A stretch of 64,000 nt of DNA from assembly GCF_029227915.1 (NCBI RefSeq), contig NC_079886.1:23412501-23476500 (forward strand). Reading direction: 5' to 3'. Below are positions 1,873-58,100 of the stretch, piece by piece. The position numbers and the translations under genes were made by a program. The notes under the pieces were generated by a model. The model ran no database searches and was not told the origin of the DNA. It saw only the letters and a program-made list of their open reading frames with translations. The DNA comes from Hydractinia symbiolongicarpus (taxonomy: Eukaryota > Cnidaria > Hydrozoa > Anthoathecata > Hydractiniidae). Position 1 is the first letter of the stretch. The number at the start of each line of letters is the position of its first letter.

Positions 1873-1982
1873 CAACCTCGTTCCCAGGGCATTTTGCCTT
1901 GTTGATAAGTTGATAGCGGCGAAAATTGTTGGCCACTCCGTAATAACGGCTCAGGGGCCACAAGACCCTGGGGACGAGGTTG
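1873..1982. mobile_element. 110-bp MITE with CAACCTCG ends and 9-bp TSD
   Basis: The left end reads CAACCTCGTTCCCAGGGC and the right end is its near-perfect inverse (accctggggacgaggttg). The 9-bp sequence agaatttac directly repeats at 1864-1872 and 1983-1991. There is no coding capacity. The ends and TSD length match the 6.1-kb autonomous element that starts 676 bp downstream, so this is a non-autonomous relative. Confidence 0.9.
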
Positions 1983-2648
1983 AGAATTTACGGAACAGTC
2001 TTTCCCTAGCTGTCCGTTGGCTATGTGGTTAAACTACCAAGGCTTTTTAAAACGATCCACGATTAATAACAAAGTTAGAAAATAGTAGAAGTACTAAATT
2101 TTGTTGTTGTAAACAGATGTGTAAATAAATACGCCATATTTAATTTTGTATTCCAATGTTTTCGTGCCATTAACTTGTGGTGCTTTACTTAACTGAACAC
2201 CATGCAAGTCATAGAACGACAGTAAAAGCCACAAGAAGACAAAAAACAGACCCTGTATCGAACCTCATACATATTTTTACCCACTTTTTGCGAAAAGAAA
2301 CATTTGGACTTACAGACTGACCAATTTTTTTATTATATTTTCTTAATTTTCCAAAGTATCCAAAATTAGCCAAACATTCTAACACCATTTTTCTTTCATT
2401 CATTCTTATATTATTCTTTTTAAAAGTTGTTTTTGTAGGTTGCAAATTAATAAACCAACATGGGGATGTCTCTGTTGAGTAGCTACAGGAAAAAACAAGA
2501 CTGACAAAATAAAAACTTAGGATCAACTTAATCCCCAATATGATATATTAAACATAGTAAAAGAGAACACCCAACTTGCTCCATAGTAAGACACAAGTAA
2601 AAAAGGGCATTTAAAAATTGGACTAAATATTTTAATTTAACATTTCTC

Positions 2649-2657
2649 CTTCTCCGT
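2649..2657. repeat. Left 9-bp target site duplication
   Basis: cttctccgt immediately before the left terminus. The identical copy lies at 8744-8752, directly after the right terminus. Confidence 0.92.
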
Positions 2658-2734
2658 CAACCTCGATCCCAGGACAAGTTGTCTCTTTTTGAATATCGGA
2701 CGGCGAGACGAACATGGCCCTGGTGGAGGCTGGT
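2658..2734 (+). repeat. Left terminal inverted repeat of the transposon
   Basis: Pairs with 8659-8743. It has an outer block of about 16 matching bases, a TTGTCTCT block, and an inner block around GGCCCTGGTGGAGGCTGGT. The stretch between outer and inner blocks is diverged. Confidence 0.8.
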
Positions 2735-2916
2735 CAAAAATCTTTGATTTTCGCAGATTTTTAATTAATGCACTCGTGTCTCGTTTATCAGGAATTTTAT
2801 ACTTCCTAGTCTTTGGTAAGCGAGTTTCAATTTAATTATTAGGGTCTGGATTTTATCGTGATCAATGGAAATAGAACTTTTTAGTGAAGACTGGACCTTG
2901 AAGGCTTTAGGTCGTG

Positions 2917-4878
2917 ATGGCTCTAACGTATATTGATATTTTAAAGCGAATATCTTTCGCATTAAATAATTACATTTTTCAGTTTTGCCTGAAACCAAAG
3001 CAAGTCATATGTTTGGAAGCTTTGTTAAAGGGGAATGATGTGGTGGCAGTTCTGCCTACTGGATTTGGAAAATCAATTATTTTTCATTTACTTGCTGATC
3101 TCTTCCCAGTTAAAAATGAAAAGAATATTGTTTTGGTCATCAGCCCTTTAACTTCCATTATAAATGATCAGGTGAAATACTTGAATGGGATTGGTTTTTC
3201 TGCTGCTGTATTGAACTTGGAACAGAGGAAGTTTGAGGCAGATGAGAGCTTGTTTGGAAGTAATGATGCAGTGGAGGACGACCATGATGGTACAAATATT
3301 ACAATTGATTGTGGTATTAAAAACGGAGATATTAAGATTTTATTTGCCCATCCAGAATCCTTTTTATCTGATCAAGGGCGTTCAATTTTAAAGAGCAAAA
3401 TTTATCAACAAAATGTGGTAGCTTGCGTGGTTGATGAAGCGCATTGTGTTGAAATGTGGTAAGTAAACTAGCTCTAGCTGGCTATTCAAGAATATAGATT
3501 ATAAAATTATAAAAAAACTTTGGTGGTTTTTAAAATTCATTTTATAAAATAATAATGAAGTACTGTAGGTATGTATATAGCACATATCATATGAAATATT
3601 TAACAAAACTGAATATATACAGTATAAAAATCTGTTATATATATATAGCTATATGTAATATATATATGAAAATATATAATGAAACTAATATAAACTAACA
3701 TATCTTTTGACAAGTTGATAATATATATCTGTTGGTACATAATATAATAAATTGCTAATATATTAGCTATACAAAATTTAAAAAAAAACACTCCATTTAT
3801 ATGTTTTAGGGGTGCTGAATTTCGTGAAGATTTTGGAAAATTATGCACACTGAAAGCTCTTTTTCCAAGCACACCCATGATTGCTTTGACAGCAACTGCA
3901 CCCCCAAGCAAAATAAACATTTTAAAAGAGAAACTATGTTTCAGTCCTTATTGTAAGGTTGTTGTTGCAAATCCAAATAGAAAAAATATATTTTTAAAGA
4001 AATTGCCAAGACGCGGAAACAACTTTGGCTTAAGAAGCTATGACGATATTTTAGTTCCCATTGCTAAAGAGTTAAATAAATTACGGGATGATTATCCCAT
4101 GACAATCATTTACATGAAGCTAAAATATTGTGGCTATGCTTATTCGTTATTTCAGCAAACAGTAACTCCAAATAACACAAAACTATTTTGTCAATTTCAT
4201 GCTCCTCAAACATCTAGAATGAAGAAAGAAATCTTAGATGAAATTACAAAACAAGATTCGTCTATTAGAGTTGTGTTTGCAACCACAGCACTCGGGATGG
4301 GTGTTAATGCACCAAAGGTTACTGAAGTTATCCACATAACGCCTCCAGCCAATATTGAATCTTACATGCAAGAAATTGGTAGAGCTGGAAGGTGTGGGCA
4401 AAACTCAACTGCAACATTGTATTACAATAATGCAGATATTGCTGTTAATAAAAATAATGTTGACGATAGCATGAAGTGCTTCTGCAAAACAGATCTGTGC
4501 TTAAGGAAATTTATTCTAAATTTCTTTGGTTTTAAAAAATATGAACAAGATAATTGTTGCTCAAATTGTACAAAGTCTAATTTGCTGATAAAAGAAACAA
4601 CATTACCTTGCCGTGATTTAGTATCAGAAGATGCTTTTAAATGCTTACAAACTGAGCTGAAAGAAATTATTGAAACTTGGAGACTTTCGCTATTGACTAC
4701 CCTTGATCAAACTTATGAACTTCCATCTATCAATAAAAATTTGGTTCAAACACTATTGAGTAAACTTCCATTTATAAGATCTAAAAATGATCTGTTATTT
4801 GAATATGATGTTTGGGATGATCAATATGCTACCACCATATACGATAAAATAAATAAGTATGCCCCAAAGCATAAATAA
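2917..4878 (+). CDS. RecQ-like SF2 DNA helicase of the transposon
   Basis: Two exons, 2917-3458 and 3810-4878, join in frame across a GT-AG intron to give 536 residues. The order of motifs is that of RecQ helicases: Walker A LPTGFGKS (about residues 46-53), motif Ia SPLTSIINDQ, DEAH box followed by the aromatic-rich HCVEMWGAEF, motif III LTATA, motif V ATTALGMGVNAP, and motif VI QEIGRAGRCGQ. A RecQ-type zinc-binding segment follows (CFCKTDLC...CCSNC). The intron splits the codon for the Trp just after DEAH. No HRDC domain is visible. By family it should be an ATP-dependent 3'-5' DNA unwinding enzyme. Its place inside a TIR/TSD-bounded element argues that it serves transposition rather than host repair. 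The first ATG follows a short untranslated leader. Confidence 0.9.
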
Positions 4879-5105
4879 TTTAGGTATATATATAAATATA
4901 TATAAACAAACTTTAAAATATATAGTATATAATATTCACTTCTGATAAAACAAACTTGTAAGATTAAAAGCACTCAGTAGACAGAATTTAAAAAAGTTCT
5001 ACTTTTTCTGGAGGTTTGAATTATCAGCAGTCAATGTTAGCATAAATAATATATATACGTTTATGGAACTCACCTTGATATAACAGATTCTTACTTTATA
5101 AAATC

Positions 5106-8049
5106 CTAGGGAACATATAGCTGTAATTTATGTTTTTCTAACCATTTTTGATGTTCTACAATATTCAAGTAACGTAGTGGGGAACGTTTAATATCAGGAA
5201 AACTTTGATGAGCTCTTCCAACAATGTGGCTAAATGGGCGAAGATTAAGCAGGTCGTTTGTCATCTCCTTTTCATCAGATATGGACTCTCGTTTAGAGTG
5301 TTGGACCGATGTATCATGAATATTTAGGTTTTGATCATAATTTTCTTTGATTTCTTTTACACCGCTCACAGCCTTGCACACTTTGCTAATGGATTTTATT
5401 GTTTTATTTGCTCCCATTCTTTGCACGATGTGTTTTCCTAAACGATTACTGATTTCTTGTGATAGATCATCTTCAATGTTTTGCCCTGCTCCACCTCTCC
5501 AATTTGAAAAGTATCCCCATTTGAACTCCTCAGACAATCTAGGTGTCAACAAGCATTCTACTTGTGCAATGCTTACAAACATCTCTATCGCATATTTACT
5601 GTATGCACCAAGTGATCGAAATATTGACAACAAAAGCTTTTGATTGATGAGGTTTCTGTCACCATCTCCTTCTTTAGCTGTATCTTTCATCTGAAGGATG
5701 AGGACTGTTAAGAAAATGATACACAGACCGTAATTTTTCACTTGATCACCATCTTCAATTGATTTTTGGAGAACAAATTGATCGACAAAATTATCCAGTA
5801 AAGTGTTAAAATATTCTTTTTTTACCTCTTTGCTAGCATGCACCAAATTTTTAGGAAAGGGATGTCTTTTTGGTTCATCTTCCAATGTATCCATCTCCAA
5901 AAAAGACATTGCTGCTACAACAACATATGCTCTACCAACACTTAAAAACAGATCTTCACTACCTTCGTATGAGTCTAACACTTTACCTGGGGTTGAATTC
6001 CTTCTATTCATTTTCTCCCTGAAATACTTCAGTGTTCCTATCTGGTTGACAGAGTTTGCTGAGTAAAGCAGAGCAAATGAATATTGAAGTAAAGATGCCT
6101 TACAGTGCCACATTGCAGCTTTGAAAGGGGAACAATGCTCCAACCGGTCTGTTGGTGTGTGATTCCCAGCTAATAGGGATTTCGCACCAGCGAAACGGAC
6201 TCGTGTCAGCTGATCACCACTAAACATTATTTTCATGTCCTTCATTGGATCTTCGTTGGTAAACACAGTATGAGAATATGATTGACCTGGCTCAGCTGTG
6301 TTTTCAGGTAATGGTGTATTGTCGATAATTGGCATGTCAGTCAGTTTACCAGCCTTTTGGTATATCTCTGCAATCCATTTCTCATATGTTCGCAGGATCT
6401 CGACACAATCTGCATACCTTGCTTCATTTGCATCAATGATCGGCATTGAAATTATTGTTGACTTTTGGGACATTTTGTCACTAAATCTGTTGTCAATATG
6501 ATCTGGGATTACTTTTTTTAAAAATTTAAATTTTGGGAAAAACTCAACCAGAATTCTTCCAATCAGAACCTTTGTTGTCTGTCTGTAACATTCCCATTCT
6601 GCCATATTGACAGCAAATTTCTTCCTGTCCATATATCGAATATCTCCAATTGGCTGGTTGTTTGGAAGATGGTCAAAACGAATTCTGTTTGCGATTAGAT
6701 TTGTTGCAAAAAGATGGTAATCTTTGTTGTCAACACCCTTTCTTGTCTCCACTAGTACTTTCAGATCCCAGTTATCGCCGCTTCCTCTGAGTGTTGTGTT
6801 GTTTTTCACTAAATCAATCGCCTTTTCCATATAGTGGCTTCCAATCAAGTTTAACAGATTTCCTTTCATCTTGTGTGACAGGCATACTCCTAGTTTGTTG
6901 AATCTTTCTTGTAACTAGAATATAAGTACCCAACATAGCTTAATTTAGTTGTTCGTTATGTTTACTTATATCCAAAAACATGTTTTAATGAAAAGTTTTA
7001 ATATATATATATACATTTAGAATTTTTTGGATAAATTTTCACCTTTCTATAAAAAGCAAAATAAGAACAGAAACTTTTTCTATTAGTCGGAGTTAAAATC
7101 TCAAGAGCATTTCCCATTATTTACATCTTACATCTACTGACTTATATATTACCTTTTTGCTGCATCCACCCTCAATGATCAAAACAGTGTTGACTCTCTG
7201 ATATAAACTAAGTTCATGCCACCGCATTTGCATCAGTATGGAATATATGAAACAAAATTTGTTTTTAGTTTCAAGTACAATATCCTTTTGCCCACACACA
7301 GCACTAAGAACATCAACAAGTAATGGATGATTTTCTTTGATCTCAGCCCACAGTTTTTCAATATTAAAATTTTGCATCTCTTCATACCCTTTTTTGTGTA
7401 AAATTGATGGTTTTTTTCTTGTGGCAAGTTTTTTACAGGAACTTTTCAAATTATTAATATAATTATTTTTCAAATATGTAGATATAGTTGGACAGTGGTT
7501 AATGATTGTATTTGCTACTACCATATTATTATTGGATTTAAGCGCTGTTTCCAGTTTTAATTTTTGCATTGCTGGTATATTGTCTTCGGGAGAAACAATA
7601 TTGCGTGGTTGCAGTTGTGTGGTAGGAACTTCAGTTAACTCCTTGTTTTCAGCAAAGTTAAGTTGCTTTCTAGATTTTCCTTTTTCGTTCTTTTTCTCAC
7701 TTTCAATAGTTTGATTTTTCTCGTTATGCGGAGACAATATGCCACGTTTGACAGACACGTTTTGTCGTAACTGAATTTGATTCAGTTGAACATTTTTCCG
7801 AAAGTCTGACATTTTCTCGACAAAGGTGACACAAGACTGACATATAACAGTTGGAAGAGCATCCAGTTCTGTTGTTCTTAACCCACATGTTAGACTTATT
7901 TTGTTCTCAATGTTTTTGTTTTTTCCAATATTGCTGAATATTTTTATAAACAAAGATTTTTGTTTTAATTTGGCACATAACCTGCAGAAATTTCCATCAT
8001 TGGAAGTGTTACGAAAGTAAATCTTCTTAGGAGTAGCTGGCTTAGCCAT
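5106..8049 (-). CDS. Transposase: ZAD-like zinc finger plus DUF6589-type DDE domain
   Basis: Two exons on the minus strand, 8049-7153 and 6914-5106, join in phase (GGCSKK/LQERFNKLG) to give 901 residues. Residues about 15-75 hold a ZAD-like zinc finger: FCRLCAK, then ICQSC about 50 residues later. A basic linker and a helical region (HPLLVDVLSAVCGQ...NTVLIIEGG) follow. The second exon resembles the DUF6589 family: GDNWD (about 345-349), the hallmark FSGDQLTRVRFAGAKSL (D about 533), and GGAGQNIEDDLSQEISNRLGKH (E about 786). I infer these as the DDE catalytic triad. The 5' exon read alone runs into the intron and stops at 7117, which hides the link between the two halves. The gene converges on the helicase, 227 bp apart at their stop codons. 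Confidence 0.85.
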
Positions 8050-8658
8050 TCTTCTATACCTTGAATAAAAAAAGAAAATTTTTATATTTAGCAATATAGA
8101 TGTATATATATAAATGTGCTTTGTGTTTTTATCTTATATATAATCCCTTACCATTTTAAGAGTTAACAGAATTCTTGCAATATGTAAAATCTGTGTAATT
8201 AGCATGGAAAATACATCCAATCCTTTATCTGTTTTTGCGTTGATGTAGCTAACTGCGCTTACTTTGTATTCTGATGTTCAGTAGTAATAATAATAATAAA
8301 TAACTAGTAGCTATCTATCTGTAACTATATATATGTCTACACTTCTTGTTTTATAACTAGCTAGCTCTAGACAATCTCTTGGTCAGTTGCTAATATTAAT
8401 TTGAGCATAAGTAGCATGTAGTTACATACAAGCACATCTGGACTGAGAGTTAACTAGTTAAAACTAATTGAAGCCATAAAAGTTTCTTGCCAAAATGTAT
8501 TTTTCAAATATTTTTTTCTGATACAAAACATGTATGCACAGTGTCGGCCATCTTTATTGTTTACAGTTAGTTTCAGCGTGAATATTTCACGGACCGAGTG
8601 ACGTTTTATCTTTCGCATAATTAGGTGAAATTCTCGACCAATCACGGCTCGGAATAAA

Positions 8659-8743
8659 ACCAGCCTCCTCCAGGGCCTTTTTCGTCAGACCTATCAATAA
8701 GCGCAGCGCCGATGAGAGACAAAAAGCCCTGGGAACGAGGTTG
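8659..8743 (-). repeat. Right terminal inverted repeat of the transposon
   Basis: Inverse partner of 2658-2734. The outer end is ccctgggaacgaggttg and the inner block is accagcctcctccagggcc. The target duplication follows at 8744-8752. Confidence 0.8.
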
Positions 8744-9057
8744 CTTCTCCGTAAGACAACTTGCAAATTATAAGGAAATTTTGAGCCTTTCTAGTAGTCG
8801 CGAAAAAACGACCAAATTTAAAACGGCTTTTATGTATATATATCACGAGATTCAATTCCTTTTATCCACTGTTATTTTTGAATTCCTTTACGAGACCTTT
8901 CTCTCCGGGATGCAACGCCAAGCGCCCTAGAACGGCGCTAATTTGAGAAGAGGAAGGCGTATTTATATTGCGCCGTAAAAAGTAAGCGAGAGTAAGTCCA
9001 AAGTTCAGCAAAGTCGCCAATGCAAATTCAAAACATCAATAAACCAAATCTGCTAAA

Positions 9058-12000: not shown

Positions 12001-13875
12001 GGTTAACCATATAGCTTTTTTACTTATTGGCTAAAATTGCTATAAAATTTAAATGAGACCATAGGAATTGTTTACGTATTATGTGGATATAACTTTGTTA
12101 ATCTCCAAGGACATGAATCTAAAATTTAGATATATTTTTCACGGTGAAGACATGAGTAGAAGAAAATGATTGACTCATACAAAATAGAATTTAACATAAA
12201 GAATTATTTAGGTTATTCTTTACAGACTGCGAAATAGATAGATAAAACAACTCTGGTAGTATGGTAGTGTGATAGGTCAACACGGTGTAATTAATGCCAG
12301 TTCGGTAGTGTGATTTATACTAGAATATATATTTCACACTGAAAACACTTGAGCATTTGCGACTTCTTATTTTCAAGAAATAAAATTTTTGTTTTGTTTG
12401 CGAACTCTTTACCCTTTCCTCTTGTGAAAATGTTTCGTGACGAAAGCATGGGTTTTCACCATACCCTGAAACCACATTACGAAAATAACACATTTAGTTC
12501 TTAAAATTAACTGTTAATCTCGCGTAAGCTTTTTCAACAATTCCATTCTATTTTTCAGGGGGTACAATCTATCCTATTGGTGTAAAAAAACAACTTCGCA
12601 TGCAAGAGATAGCCATGCAGAATAACTTGCCATGCGTTTATTTAATCGATTCAGGGGGTGGCTTTCTTCCTTTACAATCTGAAGTTTTTCCTGGCAAAGA
12701 ACACGGCGGACGAGTGTTCTATAATGAAGCCATCATGAACTCGGAAGGAATACCACAGGTGATTTGTACTTCTTCTCAGTTGTTTTTTATTTTATTTATT
12801 GTCAAAGCCAAACCTTCAGAGCAAATTTCCTTATTTTTATATATTTTTGCAATTTTACACACCTTTTCAGATTTGCCTCGTCGCTGGATCATGTACTGCT
12901 GGTGCGGCATATATTCCTACAATGGCAAACGAAGTTGTTATGGTAGATAAAATTGGAACCATCTTTCTAGCTGGCCCTCCGTTGGTGTACGCAGCTATAG
13001 GTCAGCAAATATCAGATCAAGATCTTGGTGGGGCTACAGTGCATTGTGACGTCAGCGGATGCGCCGACTATAAAGCTAGCGATGAAGTTGAAGCTCTTGA
13101 AATGTTAAAAGATGTTATGTCGACGTTGAATGTCGAAACGCATCTAAATGAAAAGACGTTTGCGGTGGAGGAACCTTTTTATGACCAACATGATCTTGAT
13201 GTACTTTCCATCGCACGTGATTCGAATGAACGGTTGTATATTCGATCGATATTATCACGTGTTGTTGACGGTAGTAGATTTCATGAGTACAAACCCACGT
13301 ATGGTGTAGAACTTTTAACAGGTTTTGCTCATGTAAATGGTATCTTAGTTGGCGTTGTGGCAAATAATGGTGTGTTTACACCACAAGCTTGTTTGAAAGG
13401 ATCCAATTTTGTATCAATTTGCAACGAACGTGGAATTCCAATAGTATTTTTACAAGACATTTCCAAAGATAATGATGAAGGTAAAAATCCAGACCTTATA
13501 AAATATCAGTCCGAATTTATGTCGGCTGTCGCCACGTCAAAAGTACCAAAAATCACTATCGTATTGGGCGACAGTTTTGGCGTGGGAAATTACATCATGT
13601 GTGGAAGGAGTATGGGCCCGAGGTTTTTGTATTTGTGGCCAACCGCCAAAATATCTTTAGACCATACAGAAAATATGAAAGAAAATAATACATTTTACGG
13701 CGAGCGGGATCAAATAGATAATAGCGTTTCATGTTATTACGGATCAGGTAGAATATGGGATGATGGTGTTATTCTTCCTGAAAAAACTCGAGAATACTTA
13801 TCGTTGTCGTTAAACGCGTGCCTAATGTACAAAAATGTTGATAAATCTTCACAACGAAATGTGTTACGCATGTAA
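9058..13875 (+). CDS. Divergent methylcrotonoyl-CoA carboxylase beta-like protein
   Basis: Exons 9058-9301, 11206-11433, 12559-12758 and 12871-13875 join in frame into 558 residues, about the length of MCCC2. Family hallmarks are present: a GGGE motif followed by [13 protein letters not shown], the [29 protein letters not shown] block, [48 protein letters not shown]-like RVVDGSRF, and a C-terminal NYIMCGR...PRFLYLWP. By family it is the carboxyltransferase subunit of a biotin enzyme of mitochondrial leucine breakdown, and the basic N-terminus could be a presequence. It is unusual. The segment GGEQAANVLA and roughly 20 residues after it are missing (here [14 protein letters not shown]). SYGAGNYG is SFGVGNYI, and CTAGGAY is CTAGAAY. 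It may be a diverged paralogue with altered activity, and I cannot say whether a canonical copy exists elsewhere. Confidence 0.85.
9385..9515. repeat. Diverged direct repeat, copy 1
   Basis: Shares tctggcaactctgc and a downstream gactttgaaaaat...ggtgtttgcacaa block, in the same order, with 9661-9775. Lies in intron 1 of the MCCC2-like gene. Confidence 0.55.
9661..9775. repeat. Diverged direct repeat, copy 2
   Basis: Second copy of the repeat at 9385-9515 (tctggcaactctgc, aactttgtaaaaat, gggcgtttgccaa). Family unknown. Confidence 0.55.
11561..11872. mobile_element. 312-bp MITE with 31-bp TIRs in intron 2 of the MCCC2-like gene
   Basis: Begins GGGCTGTTCATATGGAGGCG and ends with the exact inverse (cgcctccatatgaacagccc). 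The inverted match runs about 31 bases, through GGGCTGGCTCGG. Related subterminal copies of the ggcgggctggctcgg/catatgaac words occur inside. No coding capacity. The target duplication is not obvious, so the superfamily is not assigned. Confidence 0.85.
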
Positions 13876-15124: not shown

Positions 15125-15180
15125 CAACCTCGTTCCCAGGGCATTTTGCCTTGTTGATGGCGGCGTGTTGCGGCGCAACC
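15125..15180 (+). mobile_element. Solo left end of the CAACCTCG element family
   Basis: The first 34 bases (CAACCTCGTTCCCAGGGCattttgccttgttgat) match the start of the MITE at 1873 base for base, then diverge into a GC-rich ggcggcgtgttgcggcgc stretch. No right end is visible, so this is a truncated copy. Confidence 0.75.
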
Positions 15181-15838: not shown

Positions 15839-18800
15839 TTATTTATTCACTTCATCGATTAGTTCGTTATTATTATTACTGTTATTATTATTGTTGTTTT
15901 TATCCGAAGATATTTTTTCTCCAGGGCTGTCATGTATCGCTTGCATCATTCCCTTCGGTATATTACCATGCGTATCCATATGCATCAAAAGTTCGACTTT
16001 CTCTGAAAAGGTCTGGTCACACAGCCTGCACGGAAATACAACTTCATTTACATCAGGTTTCAAACTTTTCAAATTTGTTGAAGCTTTAGTTTTAGTTTTT
16101 TCAACCCCTGTCGAGTTCTCTCGTATTTCTTTTATTACGTCTGCCGGCAACTCGTCGTGAACTTCCATATTATGCAACAGTAAATCTTCTTTTTGATAAA
16201 ATTTCTCGTCACACATAGTACAAGCGAAGATTTGATTACGATGAACGTCAAAATGTTTCAAGAGTTCTTCCTTTTCTTTAAACGTTTCTCCACAGATGGA
16301 GCAGCCGAATGGATTCTCAGCCGAAGTTGTGTGGCTTTTCATATGTTGCTTTAGGCTCCATGTGCAGCGAAAAGTTTTGTTGCAATGTGCACAGTTGACT
16401 GTTTTCCGATCTTTGTTATGTATCAACTCGTGACGTTGCAGGTTGGCTTTCTGTCGAAAGGCTTTGTGACACACCCTACATTGGAAAGGTTTTTTGTTTA
16501 AATGAATCAGTTTGTGTTTAAGCAGGTTAGCTTTCTGTGAAAATTGTTTTCCACATATATCGCACACGATCAAACTATGAGCTGTGCGCTTGTGTGCTTC
16601 CAAGCTTGCCATAGAGATGAAGAGCTTCGAACAAGACTCGCAGTGAAAAGTTTCTTTCTCATTGTCTTTTGTTTCATTGTTCCCTTCATCGTCAAAGGTA
16701 TTTATAGTGCTCACCAAGGCGTCGGAAGGCACCACAGTTAAAATGGACTCACCAGTGTCATCTTCTTCATATAAGGATGAACTGGTGTGATTTGACGTGT
16801 TGTGCGAAAATTCTTCTGCACTACCAATCATCGTTGGGAGAGGTTCATCTTCTTCTGAAAACTCGTAATCATCCATATTCTTCTTGATTCTCATTCGTTG
16901 CGACTTTCTTGCCGGAGGGCTACTCTCCCCCACAGAAGTTCTTTCATCAACTTGCTCAGGTTCTTGTTTTATCTCTTCATTGACACACATCTCCTCGTAA
17001 TATTCTTCCTCTTTAATCAACCGTTCAGCGTCTTCTATATCCTCTTCTTTCACTTCTAAGCCATTCACCTTATTACGTTTCCCAGTTCGATGTGTCTGTA
17101 TATGTCGCTTCAAATTTCCCTTTTGATTGAAACGCTTTGAGCAGATGGAACAAGAAAATGGCTTAGCACCTGTATGTATCAAAGAATGCGTCTTCAGGGA
17201 AGCCATGTGGTTAAAACGCTTTCCACAAACGTCACATATAAAATCTCGATTTTGTGTATGGGTGAGCTGATGTCTTTGCAAATTAGACTTTTGACTAAAA
17301 GGGCGTTGACAGATGTGGCACGAATACGGCTTCTCTCCACTGTGCACGACCAAATGCTTATCAAGGTTAGCCTTGTGGTTAAATCGTTTTGAGCAGAGAG
17401 TGCATTTGTAAGGGAAGCTTCCAGTATGTAAGAGCATATGTTTTTCTAAGCTGTACTTGTAAGTCAGCACACGGTTGCATATTTTACAACTATAATTACC
17501 GCGTTCGTATCGTCCTTTACTCTCATACTCTTCAGCACCTCCTAAAATGTTGTCCTTAATGAACTCTTCGTTTTCTTTGATTAGTAACTCTTCACTCTCA
17601 GATAGTGTGTCCTCACCCATCGCATCATCTTCTTGCACATCCTCGTTTGATAATGAAGGCTTCGGCATCCTTTCATTGTTCAATCCGTCGTAGCTTTCTC
17701 TGGTTGAAGAAGATTCTGAGCTAAGTCTTAAAGGCTCCAAATGCGCAACTGAGTAGTGTTCTCTCATGGCGGCTTTCGAAGGAAACAGTCCCTTACATAC
17801 TGGACAACGTGATGTGCGCGTAACAGGACTTTTCGTGTCTGGACAATCTGATTTCTTCTCAACGTTAGCTTCTGGAAGGTCAGCAGTACCTAATGAAGAT
17901 GCACTTTGCGTCGTAGCTTTGGGTGATGCATTGGTTGAGTAACGAGACGTTACAAGTGGTGTAGTAGGAGAAGTATTAATCATTACACCAATCGTATGCT
18001 TTGCAAGACTGCCAGTTGAAGTCTCAGCATGTGTGGCCATGTGACTTTCAAGTTTAGCCACTGACATGAAGATTACTCCGCAAGCATTGCATTGTAGTGG
18101 ACATGCTTGATTTTCTTCGTAAGCTTTAGTGATGTCGGTAAGATCACTTGGTGTTGTATCTGTCGAGAAACCTCTTTGATGGCATTGCAAATGTTGGCTA
18201 AATATGATGGGCGAGTCGAACACAATGTCACATGTCGCACAGCGGAATGTTTGGCCTGGTGTTGATTGCTCGAAATACTTTTGCGGTAGGGAAATATTGG
18301 GTGTGGCTTCTTCGATGTGTTCGCTGAAATGTCTTTCAAGATTATCTGTGGTGGAGAACTTTTGTTCGCACAAGTAGCATTGGTTAGAAGACGGTGCAGC
18401 ATGAACGAGCATGTGTCTTTGAAGATTGGTCCTCGAGACGAATAACCGGTTACACGTTTGACAAATGAAATTAGTTGAACCGTTCGTATGCACTGAATAA
18501 TGCTTTTGTAACGAAGCTTTTTGTCGAAACGCTTTTCCGCAGACGTAACACTGAAATGGCCTCGAGCCAGTATGTATCATTAGATGCTTCTGCAAGTTCA
18601 CTTTTTGTGCAAAGGTTTTATCGCATATATCGCAGCGAAATTCCGACGTGCTACCACTAGCTTTGCGTTCACTCATGGTATTCATCGCTTCCAATAAGCT
18701 CTCGTTGATCGCATTGTTTACTTCGGACTCATTCGGAATTTCATTTAATGCAGCCAATAACTCTTCCTTCGTATGCTCGGTGTGCGATAAAATATGGCGT

Positions 18801-21800
18801 TGTAAATTTGCTTTCTGTGTGAAGGATTTGCAGCACATCCGACAGGTAAACGGACGACTGCCGTCATGAATATGCATATGACGTTGCAGATTTACTTTCT
18901 GTGTGAAGCGACGTGAGCAAATATGACATTGGTGTGGTTTAACGCCACTGTGAACGATTAAATGTGTGGACAAATTTGTACGGTGACGAAATTGCTTTCC
19001 GCAGATATGACAATCCAGCGATGATGACCGATTCACATGAATGAGCGAGTGTTTTGCTCGGTCATTCTCACTTTCAAAGAGCTCATCACATAAATTACAT
19101 CGATATCTGCGTTTAGTTTCATTTGCGGCCGCCGTCTTTAATAACGCGTCGTTGACTGGTTGGAAATCTAACGTCGTCATCGAAGGTTCATTTTGATTAT
19201 CTTGTTTATCCTCGAAAACGTTATCATCTTCTCGTTTGATTGTTAATAGTGATAAAGACATTAGCTCTCCCGGTGTTTTCTCCACTGACACATTTGAAGT
19301 GTGCGAAGAAGTTGAAGAGCTTGTTGTTGCTAAACCAAAAAGAAAAATCTGTAAAATCAAAAGGATTAACAAGACGTGAAAAAGTTTAACGACTACTTAA
19401 TAAACAGTTTGAAAAAAACTTAATTTTGTTTATACTCTATTATTCTGTATCTATTCTCCTACCTTTCTCACCACCAGGACCATCATTGGTAGTTCTTTTA
19501 GGTAATATAAACACTTCTCTACGCGAATGTTGGTGCGTTTGATGGTGGTGAACGAGTTTACTATAATCAACAAAAGATTTCTCGCATAACGTGCACTGGT
19601 ACAGCTGATCGAACGGTTGCGTATAAACAAACTCCTTCTCGTGTTCTTCGCTGTAATGTAGTTTTAACTTATCCTTATGATCAAACAGAAGGTGACAAAA
19701 CTTGCAATTAAAGGTGCCGGGTTTCAATAATTTGGGCGGGTCTTGTTTAAGTAGATTAACTTGATCGTGCATAAACATGTGCTGCTTGAATTTTGTGTCA
19801 TCATAAAACACTTCAGAACAAATCGTGCAACGCAGTACAACTGACGGTTGTAACTTTTCCAACTCTTGCTCACTGGTGTCCATAAAGAAGCCGTCGGAGG
19901 GTCGCCGGTCAGCATTTTCAACGAATAACTTCGTTATGTTATCCACGTTTGATTTTAGGGATTGCAGTGAGGAAGACGATGCGCGGCGTTGCATAGAATC
20001 CGTCGCAACGTATCTAGGCGACACGTGGGGCATGCTGGCGTGGTGGGGTACCACCGAGACTTGAGATGGTAGCATTCCATCTTTCGCTTCGACAGCTTCT
20101 CGTGGACTCAAAGGATATTTCGCTATGTATGTTGACAAGTTCTGATTGGTGTCTGTTATATTTTCACCATTTGACGTTCGTTTTGTTAAAGCGTCGTCTT
20201 TCTCAGAAACTTTTTCACTTCCTGTTTCAATTTGACTGTTTTTCTCCTGGTGAACTATTTGTTCAGTTTTGCCAGTTGATAAGGTGGTGAAATCTGTAAA
20301 AGAAAGAGTCTATTGTTGGATGAAGATATTTTTTTTTAATTGGACAGATCTCATGAACCCATGACGTGTTCTTCTCCGTTATTGGTGAGGAAAAAACAAA
20401 TAGCTAATAACAAATTTTTAAAAGTGAAAAAAAATATTAAAGCTGAAAATATTATGTTGGAGCTTTACGAAAATTACTTAAAATTAAAAAGAGGCCCAGT
20501 GTAATTCATGTTTACAAAAATTTACAGCAAGTTCTCTTAGCCTCTAGACACATACAACATTCTTTCCACATTGAGATTTGACACATTATATTGGTATGAT
20601 CAATAAGACATCCATAAACAAATTCTTGTTGACAAAAACCATGCGACTGTACTCGTTGAAAAATTTTAACTATGCATATATTTGGATTGTGTACGCAAGA
20701 ACGTTGGATTCGCTACAACCACAGAAAATAGTCACGTAAAAACGTAAACCCTGGGTTGTTTTCTATAGAGTGAATGCTTTTTTTTCGGTTATCAGTTTTT
20801 CAAATCTCACTTTAAAAAAAGCAGATTAACTTAGAGCATCTTTAAAACTGTATCACAACTTGATAGAATATTACAATTTGTTTTGAAAAGAGCATCTTAG
20901 AACTTAGGCTTTAAAAGACATTTGAAATGAATAAATTCTTATAGAAAATGTGTATAAAAAAATGAAGAAATTATAAGTTACCATCTTTTCTGTTCTTTTG
21001 CAGTCTGGAGATAACAGCGTTGATACCACCTTTAAAACATTTTCGTTGTTTGGAGGAATTTGTCGAAGAAAATAAATCTTCAAACTCAGGTTCGTCAACT
21101 TCGTCTTTTTCTTCATTCTGAAAATTAGAAAGCAAAACCTAATTCACAAAATGACAATGATTAAACAAAAAGCAAACTCATTCCCAACTCCTTTCAGCAC
21201 TTTTTTAATAAAGAAACTGGGATCGAGGTTGAAGATAATAATGAAGAAGTATCTGTAAGAACATACATCGTCTTTTGCTATCTTCTTTGCCTCTACTTTA
21301 ATGTTTTCTGCATGCGATTTCAAAAAATCTTCAATAAGGAGTGCATCAATACTTCGAAGATGTTCTTCGCTCTCCCATGTGTTCTTCCATTGCACTTCAA
21401 ATAATCTTTCACCACTCTAACATAAAACATAGAGGGAAAAATTAGCTGACCAGCAACGAGATGTACTGACCAGTATTCAGCAAAATATAGGTCATTTCAT
21501 GCTTTGACGTAAATTGTCGCCTTATACGTAATACTCGAAGTGACTTTATCATTGCTTGATTTTGAAAGTAGGAATGAATGCTGGGAGACAAAAAAAAGAA
21601 ACAGAAATATCTAGATTTTAGACTTAAACCACTGTTATAACTAAAAGATTTTCTTGTAAAACCATAAAACTTATTCGCCGGGGAACATATATTCATTAAA
21701 CCCACTTCAAAAAATCCTAAAATATTAGTGTGGATATTTTCTCTGTTTGGTTGACATGAACGTTAATGTATGCGATGATTGTATTGTGTTCATATTTTAA

Positions 21801-52169: not shown

Positions 52170-55100
52170 ATGTCATTATCAAAGACGTATTTAGGATTGA
52201 ATGAACTCAGACAAGTATGTTTACGATGTCTCTCCAACTCAAGTTCTACCTATCCAAGATTTTATAACACTACCCATAATAACAAATGGAGTTCTATAAA
52301 GCTCAGAAAACAGACATTTTCCATAAAACCATTTTATGTGTCAAAAAGAACAACCACAACTGGACCTCAAAGTGTTCTTCCAATAACTGAAATTATTACA
52401 AAAGACAGAATAATTCTTTTGGGACTTGGAGGTATGCTACCCTGTATACATCTGTGTTTAACTTTTTACTTACTGGCTATTATGGTTCATAAAATATATA
52501 TTTGTTGTCCTATAAAATGTCTACTTCAGATTGTGTCAAAAAATATTTGTTTTGTGTATAAAATGATTTTTAGGTGTGCTGCGTTTGTCCAATCCATATA
52601 GAGTTAGGCATTTTGATGTACCTTGATATCCCAAGTAATTTTGCAGATTGTGCTGTTTAAGAATATATTAAGAGGAAAAGTTTTTCAGAAGTTACCAAAA
52701 CTTTTTATTCTCATTTAGTTGTTGTTGTGGGATGCTTAGTTGGTTATGAAAGAATTAGCGCACAAAACAGAGAACATAAATTAATGGTGAAAAAGTTGCA
52801 TTCCACTGTTCTAAATGCACAGGTTTGTAACTTGGAAGCTTACATTACAGAAATTTATTTAGTTTTAACTAGCACTGAAATTTACCCTTGGTGTCTATTC
52901 CTTGCTTATATATGTTTGTTTTAGAATGCCGTCAAAGAAGAAAAATATGAAGAAGCAGTACAGCAATATCGCGAAGCAAGGAAACTTGTTGATCTTGTTA
53001 CAATGAGTAGCTCAAGTGTACAACATAAAGTTATTTTAAACATTGTAGATCAAGTATGTGAGAAGTTAATCCAGTGTGAAAACCACTAGGTTTCTTAGGT
53101 TGTTCAAAAAATAAAAAATGAAAGCTGAATTTACTCGATTTTTTCCACCGTAAAATAAGGCATGGTTTGCTGAGAAACCAGAAATAATAGGTGGAATATT
53201 TTTTTTACAAAGCCTGAAAGTCTGATTATTATTGAGTTATGATGCATAAAAAATAAAAAACACAAATAGGTTTGCTACAAATCTGTTACATGCAATGAAT
53301 TACAAAACTTTTACAACTCTTGCGAAATTGTTATAAGATCCCTAAACACAATGTAGGTACCATGCAAAGTTGATAGACATATCCAACAATTGCCCATGTG
53401 GGGATTATTGGAAAGGCCAGTTTATTTTTTAAGGTGGGAACAATAGAGTGAAAACGCCAAGTAATTTACCTAAGAATTTTGTGGATGAAAATATTTTACC
53501 CTTTATACATTTGTAGCTTGGACACTTGTTATATGAGTTAGGGAACTGGGAAGAAGTAAGTATGATGTCAATATTTATTGGTTTAGTTGCGTTTGTTTTT
53601 ATCTTTATTACTTTTCTAAACATTGTTGCTTTTGTATTATAGCATTGTTTATTGCCTTTTTAGAGTGTTAGATTTTTTTTTCAAATTTCTAATGTTTTAC
53701 TAGGCTGAAATATTTTTAAAAGAAACTGAAAGTGTGATGCTCGATTGTGGAGTACAAAAGGTAAGTTTTTTTTTGAAATTTGAGGTGCATATTTTTAATT
53801 GAAACCATCTTGTTACTTACAATCTATTTGACACCTGCTTCAAAACTCTTGTATATATAGTGTTTTCCACTTAATTTAGAATATTTTAAATTTATGATGT
53901 ATTTTCGTGGAAGAATACAAATCTAGATTTGCATCAGATTTTACAAAGTTAGCTGCTTTAGTATCTAAAAAATATTGATAAAAATCTCGTTCCACCTTGT
54001 CAAAATCTTCTACAAAACTGTAACAAATGATCTCAATGCTCTCAGTGAGGTATCCAAAGTTTTTTTGGGATTTCAGACTGTAAAAGATAAAAAAAAGAGT
54101 GGAGGGGAGATACGAACTCTGCTATTTTAGACCTTAAGTGTCACTAGTGGTCACAAGGTCTGTGGTTTGGGCCACAGCGCAGGCATGTTTAGCAAGTACT
54201 ACAGCTACACTACAGCAATTTTTACACTAAAATACGTCACAGTTAGTGTTCTTGCAACGTTTAATATTCCTCAATAATGTGTTTCCTTCTGTACACATTT
54301 ATTTTCTATATTAGGATGACGATGTGTACATAGAAGTGATGTTGCGGTTGGCAAAAATAGATTCTGTTTCCAATAGAAAAGAGGAAGCACTTGATCGATT
54401 TAAATTTTGTATCAGCAACTTGGAAAAGAAAATTTCTGTACAAGACATCTATAGTGAAGAGCATTCTGAAAGGTTGAGTTTTTGTTTTGCAACTTGTTTG
54501 CGTAATAATTTGTGTGACAAGAAAATTTTTTAATTAGTAGGATTTTGTTGTCAGAACTTGTTTTTTCCGATAAGTCAATTTTAATTTTTTTGGAGCGAAT
54601 AAGGAAAAAATTTTTTAAGTTTAATTTGTAGACAAGCCAGTTATGTTGATATTTCAGACAAATGTTGTTCTTATATGCTGGTAAAAGCATCTGGATATAT
54701 TGGAGTTGAGCTTATTACAACTAATCAGATTATAAAGGATGGTGCTATTCCGAGTGAGTGGCAGTCGAGGGTAATAGTAAATTGTTTCAAAGGCAAGGGT
54801 GATGCGTTAGAAAGAGGTAACTATAGAGGTTTGAAGTTGGTTCATCAAGTAATGAAAGTTATTGAAAGAGTGATTGATAAGTTACTTAGAGAAAGAATTG
54901 ATATAGATAAGATGCAATTTGGTTTTGTTCCAGGGCGTTGCACTACAGATGCAATATTTTTACTCAGACAGCTTCAGGAAAAGTATTTAGGAAAGAGAAA
55001 GAATCTCTATTTTGTTTTTGTAGATTTAGAGAAAGCTTTTGATAGAATGCCACGTAAAGTTATTTGGTGGACTATGAGAAAATTAGGTGTGGATGAGTGG

Positions 55101-58100
55101 GTAGTTACGATGGTACAGTCTATGTACAGCAATGCTAGAACTTGTGTCAGGATTAACGATTCACATAGTGATGAATTTAGTGTATATGTTGGTGTACATC
55201 AGGGTTCTGTACTTAGTCCTTTGTTGTTTGTTCTAGTCTTAGAAGCGCTGTCCATGGAGCTCAGAACAGGTTGTCCATGGGAGTTATTGTATGCAGATGA
55301 TTTGGTTCTCATAGCAGAGTCGATGGAAGAATTAGTTGAAAAGTTTGAGAAGTGGAAGAAAGGACTAGAAGAAAAAGGGCAAGGGTGAACACAGCAAAGT
55401 CTAAAGTCATGATTAGTAGCACTGCAGCCAAGTGTAACCTTGTAGTTGGAAAGTGGCCTTGTGGCGTTTGCAGGAAAGGGGTTGGTAGTAACTCAATTTT
55501 TTGTCAGACTTGCAAGCATTGGGTACATAAGAAGTGCAGTAGTATTAGTGGAAGGTTAAGAGCTGACATTCAGTTTGTATGCAAGCGTTGCAAAGGTGAG
55601 ATAATAGAGAATGAAGTATTTCCAAGGTAGGTTGTATGATGCCTGTGTAAAAAGTGTTATGTTATACGGAGTGAGACATGGGTGGTGAAGCAGGAAAATC
55701 TTGACCGTTTAGAAAGGAATGATATGGGAATGGTTAGGTGGATGTGTAACGCCAGTCTGAGAGACACAAAGAGTTCAGATGATCTAAGAAGCAGGCTAAG
55801 TATCCGTAGAATTAAAGATGTTATCCAGATAAGAAGATTGAATTGGCTGGGGCACTTGGAAAGAGTGGAGGGGGATATTTGGGTAAGAAAGTGTAGAGAC
55901 AAAGCCCAGAGACAGACCGAGAAAGACTTTGCAGGAATTTATAAGGACAGACTTGATACAGAGGAAGATGAGTTTAGATCTAACACAGTCTAGATCAGAT
56001 TGGAAGAGGGTCATTAATATACCCCGTCCAACCCATGCTAGCATGGAAAACGGACGTTAAGCCGAGAATGATGATGATGATGATGATATTTATTATGGCA
56101 AGACAAGTAGAGCAAATTTTAATGTTGGTTATGTAATGTTTATAATTTCTGTTTTGAAACCAGTGTGTCTTATTAGGTTATTTAGAAGACTGAATTTGTT
56201 GCTAATTATGTTAGTGAAAAAAACAAATGCCCTTGCATTTAAAAAGCTTGAAATAAGATTTGTTTGAACTAAAATGCATTCATGGCGTGCCAATATGGGT
56301 GTCAGATATACATGCGAGGTCAAGATGCATGACGAATATACAAACAAGTTATCTCTACTCTCTCTCTCCAATAGTGCTCCTTCTACATTAATAATATTTG
56401 GAAATATTTCCAGAACATTCTTATTCCACACCCTCTACTATTAATATTTGAAGTTTTTTCCTCCCTTTGAATATTGTTTAATTATCTTTAATTTGATTTT
56501 TCTGACATAAAATGTAGCAAATTGATGTAATAAGCTTACTATTCGTCTCGCTATTGCTTTATGGGTATATATATCAGAGAGTATATAACATTAGGATGTG
56601 TATTGTTTTTTAGATTAACATTATATGGTATGTTGTTAACTGAATATGGCACGTTCACAAGGGCGTTAGGAATGCTGGATGAATCCGAAAAAGCATTTTC
56701 TAAAGCTTTAAATATTTGTCGGAGTGTGTTGGGACCAAATCATGAACAGGTAATAAGTGTTGTTTTGTTTTCTTTGTGAAAGAAATTTTTAATTTTTTGT
56801 GAATATATTTCCCGTCACTTTACATATCATACACTACTCTCCTGTTTACATCGGTGCAATGAGAAATTAGCACTTTCATATTCCTAGGGATCTCTATACC
56901 TCGAGGAAAGTAATTTTTGTGGAGTTTATTTTTAGGATTTTGATCCCTTTTTCCAAATTAAGTTCTTCAAACTATTTGCATTTTGATATATTGTTCACGT
57001 TAGACTTTTATTTCGTGTTTTTTTGTAACACCTTCCAATCGCAAAAAAAATTCCGCTTGTTCTCTAAAAAATATACTTTTCAGCCCCTGCAAAGGAATAC
57101 TTCCTGCAAAATTGTCATTTCTTGAGGCAAAAGAAGATGATTAAAAAAGTCTGGTAAAAAGTAGGGAGCCACTTGCTAAAGAAAAAGTTTGGGTTTTAAA
57201 TGGGAGAATTAAATAGCAAACACTAAAAAACATTTGTTGAGCTGAGTGAACAAAATTAGACCAACAATCAATCACATTCGGAACATTTCGTTGCCCAGAG
57301 GGTAGACTTGTTTTTATACCTTAGGCGCCCTGTGTATGTGTTCAACGGTGATGGCTTTTAAAACTTGTTTTTTTAATTTTTAGACGTCTGTTTTGGCAAA
57401 CGACTTAGCAACTGTCTACGACGAGAAGGGGAGATACAACAAAGCCATTAGATTGGCCGAGAAAGCAATTAAAATTGCAGGCGAGACTGCACCCGAAAAT
57501 CTTGCCACTTATAAATATAATTTAGGTCATATATTAATGCACCAAGGTACGTTACATCTGTTTTTTTAGTTTAGACTATACGACCCTATTTGTCGTATGA
57601 GAATTGTTTTGTAGTGAAAACTTAAGGGAGGGGTAAGAAAATAACATATTGTGCACACCTGTAAGCAACATTTTAAAAGCAAAAGAATACTCGGATTCTT
57701 TAAAACCAAAGAAACTGTTTAGTATCAACGAAGACTGAAGGAAAAGTATAAAAAGGACGAAAACATGGATTATTGGAATAATAATAATTTCAGAGACTCT
57801 TAAGTTGTGTAATTTCACACAACAAACGTGATTAAAGTTTGATTGTCGAATTGTGTACCAACCTATCAGAACAAACAAACACAAGAATTTGCTTTTCAAC
57901 GTAGATAGGGTCTCAGTTAAGAAACTTAAACAACATTAGATGTAAGCCTGAAACTTATGTTACTTATAAAAGAAAATACCCTATTCGTCAAAAAAGGGTT
58001 TTAAAATCTCAAATGCACTCTTATTCGACTCAAAATCGCCATTATCATACTTGAAAATATCCGTAGTGATGAAGTGCTAGTTTTATTCGTTAGGAATGTT

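Follow-up and report, generated by a model that had tools for sequence, protein, structure and literature searches.

A young, helicase-encoding DNA transposon, very probably of the AcademH kind, in the genome of Hydractinia symbiolongicarpus

A stretch of 64,000 nucleotides of the Hydractinia symbiolongicarpus genome (contig NC_079886.1, positions 23,412,501 to 23,476,500; hereafter the window) was found to carry a complete DNA transposon of 6086 bp at positions 2658-8743. We are confident that it is a young and structurally complete element of the AcademH kind, accompanied in the genome by deleted copies and by miniatures that have the same ends. The element inserts at varied targets with a stagger of 9 (sometimes 10) bp, undergoes internal deletions that preserve its ends, and carries a helicase gene that has been inherited together with its transposase gene. 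The two genes are convergent, have two exons each and are both open, predicting a helicase of 536 amino acids and a transposase of 901 amino acids, and the introns of both have GT..AG borders under the predicted splicing. An earlier note on this DNA, made from the letters of the window, had claimed exact ends with a perfect 9-bp duplication and two uninterrupted spliced genes, and both claims held (Table 1).

The terminal repeats of the element read CAACCTCGATCCCAGG and CAACCTCGTTCCCAGG, and the outermost 16 bases of the left and right ends differ by a single mismatch. About 50-57 bp inward of the ends sits a pair of 28-nucleotide inverted repeats, which from its sequence is a candidate protein-binding site. 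An Rfam scan of the window at the gathering threshold gave zero matches.

The search for other copies with the same ends that the earlier note had proposed was carried out on the host assembly (480.9 Mb), using 301 bp of the left end as the query. At least 41 matches were obtained, the number being a lower bound as 40 of 512 first-look candidates were scored. The match started at the predicted first base of the element in 24 of the 41, and at that base or at most two bases before it in 35. Altogether 21 copies were examined, namely 20 fetched matches and the window copy, and the right ends were checked within the fetched copies. Both ends were located in 15 copies and every one of these 15 is flanked by a perfect duplication (9 bp in 13 copies and 10 bp in two), while the chance of one perfect 9-mer is 4e-6. 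In the six unscored copies (L036, L041, L047, L048, L049 and L050), an end was absent from the fetched stretch or degraded. Each of the two-ended copies has its own target except L038 and L042, and because these two have the same flanks the copies represent 14 independent targets.

To compare the filled sites with uninserted sequence, 14 joined sites were set against the fetched DNA, and a match across the join was found for two only, L034 and L038. In both cases the empty sites are paralogous repeat units of the same genome. L034 is inserted inside a tandem repeat, where a gap-free comparison of the adjacent unfilled unit with the joined flanks gives identity at 259 of 260 positions; GTGAAAAGA is present once in this unfilled unit and twice at the filled L034 site. 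L038 lies inside a different tandem array, the unfilled units of which hold a single TTATCTTGT. Since the unfilled units beside both copies hold a single 9-mer, the duplication arises on insertion, and on these paralogous units it is genuine when judged against uninserted sequence. We give almost no credence to the view that these are the remains of a dead element, or segmental duplications mimicking a mobile family. The common flanks of L038 and L042 would agree with such a view, as would the broken frames in five of the eight full-length copies described below, but the other 13 two-ended copies differ in their flanks and duplications, and the window copy and two others retain both open genes.

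Eight of the 15 two-ended copies are full-length, with sizes of 6086-6097 bp. They differ from each other by 0.37% on average (range 0.10%-0.59%), and of the 81 substitution columns that vary, 74 show a variant confined to one copy. This agrees with the description of the element as young in the earlier note, and the young copies reflect a recent burst. Four variants are common to the window copy, L031 and L032, which form a recent sub-lineage. Both frames are open in three full-length copies, namely the window copy, L032 and L035, and in L032 the donor site of the helicase intron has GC in place of GT. The differences between the copies comprise 14 nonsynonymous and 6 synonymous changes in the helicase gene (ratio 0.61), and 29 nonsynonymous and 7 synonymous changes in the transposase gene (ratio 1.07).

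The helicase matches the Pfam families DEAD and Helicase_C, and its match to the RecQ zinc-binding family PF16124 falls under the curated cut-off of that family. No winged-helix or HRDC domain is present in its Pfam listing. Among solved structures, the best matches were RecQ, BLM, RecQ1 and WRN, in line with the RecQ-like helicase proposed earlier. No variation is seen at the ATPase, motif VI or zinc-cysteine positions across 11 hand-chosen aligned helicases, and an NCBI gene model derived from another copy (P0029, 536 amino acids, 99% identity, full coverage) gives the same helicase length.

The transposase combines an N-terminal zf-AD zinc finger with a DUF6589 domain; the latter had been named in the earlier note and was matched here by Pfam PF20231 with an E-value of 8e-38. 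Both domains are found within a single protein also in P0001 (875 amino acids, 52% identical). Among the 22 conserved acidic residues of the transposase, D346, D533 and E780/E786 are candidate catalytic positions. No mention of DUF6589 was found in the literature searched, and we take this domain to correspond to the Academ transposase.

The AcademH reading of the earlier note is supported: the helicase and the 9-10 bp duplications fit the published description, and the class of the transposase is our assumption as above. According to passages of PMC10045372, AcademH encodes a helicase and generates duplications of 9 or 10 bp, AcademX has a nuclease and duplications of 3 or 4 bp, and the duplication length in Academ has been proposed to go with the accessory enzyme. 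AcademH was described by Kojima 2020 (Mob DNA 11:15), the title of which names animals and fungi (as cited in parts of PMC10045372 and PMC10799480). The Hydractinia element resembles AcademH in encoding a helicase beside the transposase and in its duplications, which are of 9-10 bp in all 15 scorable copies and of 9 bp in three divergent families (see below); no difference in kind was found relative to AcademH, which is known to us by description only. The Academ superfamily has a second lineage, AcademX, which was rejected as an identity in view of the 9-10 bp duplications; the Pfam scan of the four coding stretches also yielded nothing matching a nuclease. The element is thus, by description, a new Hydractinia family of the known AcademH kind. 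It may be listed in Kojima 2020, in Repbase or in Kon et al. 2025, a study of Hydractinia transposons cited in a passage of PMC12239608. The word 'Academ' is absent from the main text of the Hydractinia genome paper (PMC11067881), as far as that text was available.

Other helicase-bearing elements were also considered. Passages of PMC9587614 report that KolobokH encodes a RecQ helicase and that in one red-algal Kolobok such a helicase is encoded by the complementary strand. The addition of a RecQ helicase to a transposon of DDD/E type, a type that is putative for the present element, is a likeness between KolobokH and the Hydractinia element. The Hydractinia helicase differs from that of KolobokH in being a separate, convergent gene on the opposite strand, but the red-algal Kolobok has that layout too. 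Because KolobokH and the red-algal Kolobok carry RecQ, a convergent helicase alone cannot separate Kolobok from AcademH. We nevertheless hold membership of Kolobok or of some other helicase-bearing superfamily very improbable: Kolobok duplicates TTAA, the duplications in Hydractinia are of 9-10 bp, and the transposase has the zf-AD and DUF6589 domains. Helitrons likewise are DNA transposons with a helicase. According to a passage of PMC12730594, they use an HUH nuclease/Y1 transposase and single-stranded transposition, whereas the Hydractinia element has terminal inverted repeats and 9-10 bp duplications.

The pairing of the two genes was then assessed across families in the H. symbiolongicarpus genome. 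With exon 2 of the transposase as the query, at least 79 matches were obtained (73 of 191 candidates scored), clustering into at least 68 loci, and the helicase query gave at least 106 matches (81 of 512 candidates scored), clustering into at least 77 loci. A helicase lies at most 3 kb away at 46 of the 68 transposase loci, against a chance expectation of about 0.001 per locus, and the orientation is tail-to-tail in all 46 pairs. When the count was restricted to transposase loci that are near-complete, with aligned residues summing to 540 or more over their pieces, a helicase was nearby at 28 of 36, and at 18 of the 26 among these 36 that are less than 70% identical to the window transposase.

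Constraint was compared over eight families, i.e. seven divergent pairs and the window element. For the helicase, synonymous differences (pS) amount to 0.64-0.81, which is near saturation, and nonsynonymous differences (pN) to 0.28-0.44; the corresponding values for the transposase are 0.73-0.87 and 0.21-0.34. The identities of helicase and transposase correlate with an r of 0.64, a value that is reached by 437 of 40320 label permutations. Because pN is low relative to pS and the identities correlate, the helicase has been constrained and co-inherited with the transposase over a long divergence. Full ends were read for three of the seven divergent families, giving elements of 6069, 6231 and 6139 bp. 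The ends of all three start with CAA[C/T]CTCG, and each element is flanked by a perfect 9-bp duplication. These relatives in the same genome suggest, at the level of sequence, a helicase that functions within the element instead of riding along as a passenger.

The ends are far more numerous than the genes. Exact matches to the 16-bp end CAACCTCGWTCCCAGG number 1520 in the genome (732 + 788) and those to the reversed control 0, as compared with the at least 68 transposase loci. Among the 16-bp end places listed, all on C1, there are eight facing pairs 83-120 bp apart. These eight and three longer pairs were fetched, and the 11 pairs correspond to 8 distinct sites, four of which have perfect 9-10 bp duplications, two a match of 8/9 (judged by eye) and two none. 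A 120-bp miniature, L070/L071, looks by eye like the fused two ends of the window element, and a 90-bp miniature was seen in L029. The 110-bp miniature that neighbours the element in the window is a non-autonomous relative.

Further end-like sites were noted as well. A terminal-repeat-like CAACCTCGTTCCCAGGGC is located on the + strand at window position 15125, and a partner that would give a 9-10 bp duplication was looked for without success; more end-like sites are at positions 36, 21231, 41915, 50884 and 61174. Elsewhere in the genome (G000), nine left-end matches of 82-84% identity lie on one strand of C6:12543005-12760573 at a spacing of about 23-30 kb, which suggests a large tandem segmental duplication bearing a diverged relative of the element.

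Seven of the 15 two-ended copies are internally deleted to 1.9-4.9 kb and retain both ends. Two of them also contain extra stretches unlike the element, of 2.3 kb in L040 and of 0.2 kb in L045. Microhomology at the deletion joints is 1 bp in L033a, L040a and L044, 4 bp in L037 and 5 bp in L046, and the joint of L033b has a 5-bp filler. Five further joints (L034, L045a-c and L048) have mismatches near the joint and gave no clear reading. Internal deletions that spare both ends are typical of interrupted gap repair.

Among the roles considered for the helicase, we favour, tentatively and with rather less than even confidence, unwinding after the cut that serves the refilling of the donor gap. 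The DUF6589 transposase would bind the ends via its zinc finger and the subterminal repeats, excise the element and join it to the target at a stagger of 9 (sometimes 10) bp. The helicase would act after the cutting and unwind joined or displacement-loop DNA. A sister or homologous copy could then serve as the template for refilling the donor gap, by which the copy number would increase, and aborted refilling would give rise to the internally deleted copies. The analogy is with Drosophila, where the synthesis-dependent repair of the gap left by P-element excision depends on BLM, a RecQ helicase, according to a passage of PMC8951532. The stronger version, in which the helicase would be an obligate transposition factor that, BLM-like, unwinds a post-cut intermediate for either gap refilling or copy-out, is possible but more doubtful.

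The main rival to gap refilling is a replicative pathway, in which the transposase would nick one strand, the helicase would peel off the element, and a copied or single-stranded intermediate would be inserted. The RecQ-core helicase kept in several families and the many near-identical copies at unrelated sites are compatible with it, and a passage of PMC12730594 describes that Helitrons pair a helicase with a transposase for single-stranded transposition. On the other hand, terminal inverted repeats with a fixed duplication of 9-10 bp are the outcome of staggered double-strand insertion, and the internally deleted copies, which keep both ends, also speak against this pathway. We consider it unlikely, if clearly the strongest of the competing explanations.

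Several observations weigh against our account of the element and its helicase. The DDE-type nature of the DUF6589 protein is predicted from sequence, its fold and catalytic triad are putative, and a search of the transposase by sequence and profile against solved structures (PDB) gave zero matches. Changes between copies within the young family look unconstrained, as expected once copies have inserted. Three of the five microhomology joints are of 1 bp, which easily occurs by chance, internal deletions also arise from other errors, and the gap-repair role of the helicase rests on analogy. The element is known from the genome sequence, and both its present activity and the unusual unwinding or replicative mechanism suggested in the earlier note are putative. 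Finally, the pairing is incomplete among the matches that were scored: no helicase was found nearby at 22 of the 68 transposase loci, or at 8 of the 36 near-complete ones, and no transposase nearby at 31 of the 77 helicase loci. Moreover, near-identical copies and duplicated segments are among the loci, so that the 46 pairs do not stand for as many independent events.

The 22 transposase loci at which no helicase was found could also reflect a helicase with no role in transposition, be it a passenger or a gene captured from the host. The excess of 16-bp ends likewise fits this idea: because these ends outnumber the transposase loci and some of them are on gene-less miniatures, neither gene is needed in cis. 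We find a passenger improbable, however, as the pairs are tail-to-tail without exception and the helicase diverges in step with the transposase. Its nonsynonymous change is low while its synonymous change is near-saturated, and its ATPase and zinc residues are invariant in the aligned helicases.

Table 1. Features of the transposon and of the adjacent miniature (window coordinates).
Feature	Position	Strand	Basis or remark
110-bp miniature, same kind of ends	1873..1982	.	Outside the element, about 0.7 kb away
Perfect 9-bp duplication of the miniature, AGAATTTAC	1864-1872, 1983-1991		
Left target-site duplication, CTTCTCCGT	2649..2657	.	Read from the window sequence
Left terminal inverted repeat, CAACCTCGATCCCAGGAC	2658..2675	+	16/18 bases agree with the opposite end
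Subterminal inverted repeat, 28 nt	2707..2734	+	89% complementary to 8659-8686
Helicase exon 1: Walker A GFGKS, DEAH box (PF00270)	2917..3458	+	
Helicase exon 2: Helicase_C (PF00271), motif QEIGRAGR, RecQ zinc-binding cysteines	3810..4878, including stop	+	
Transposase exon 2: DUF6589 (PF20231, E 8e-38), tail-to-tail with the helicase	5106..6914	-	Pfam
Transposase exon 1: N-terminal zf-AD zinc finger (PF07776)	7153..8049	-	Pfam
Partner of the 28-nt subterminal inverted repeat	8659..8686	-	
Right terminal inverted repeat, CAACCTCGTTCCCAGGGC when read on the - strand	8726..8743	-	
Right target-site duplication, CTTCTCCGT	8744..8752	.	Read from the window sequence

Other open frames of the window were recorded in passing. 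Those at 15842-19396 (-) and 19443-20309 (-) have C2H2 zinc fingers, of which there are many in 15842-19396, the frame at 12766-13872 (+) contains a carboxyl transferase domain, and that at 54603-55385 (+) gave a reverse transcriptase domain match.

In the literature available to us, no settled reason is given for the presence of a helicase in some eukaryotic DNA transposons. The presence of several divergent families with paired genes, together with young open copies and with deletion and miniature derivatives, makes this laboratory cnidarian a good system in which the role of the helicase can be addressed. Should the helicase be an obligate factor, it would turn cut-and-paste transposition into net copying or serve a copy-out reaction, and the long duplication of 9-10 bp would go together with the helicase machinery.
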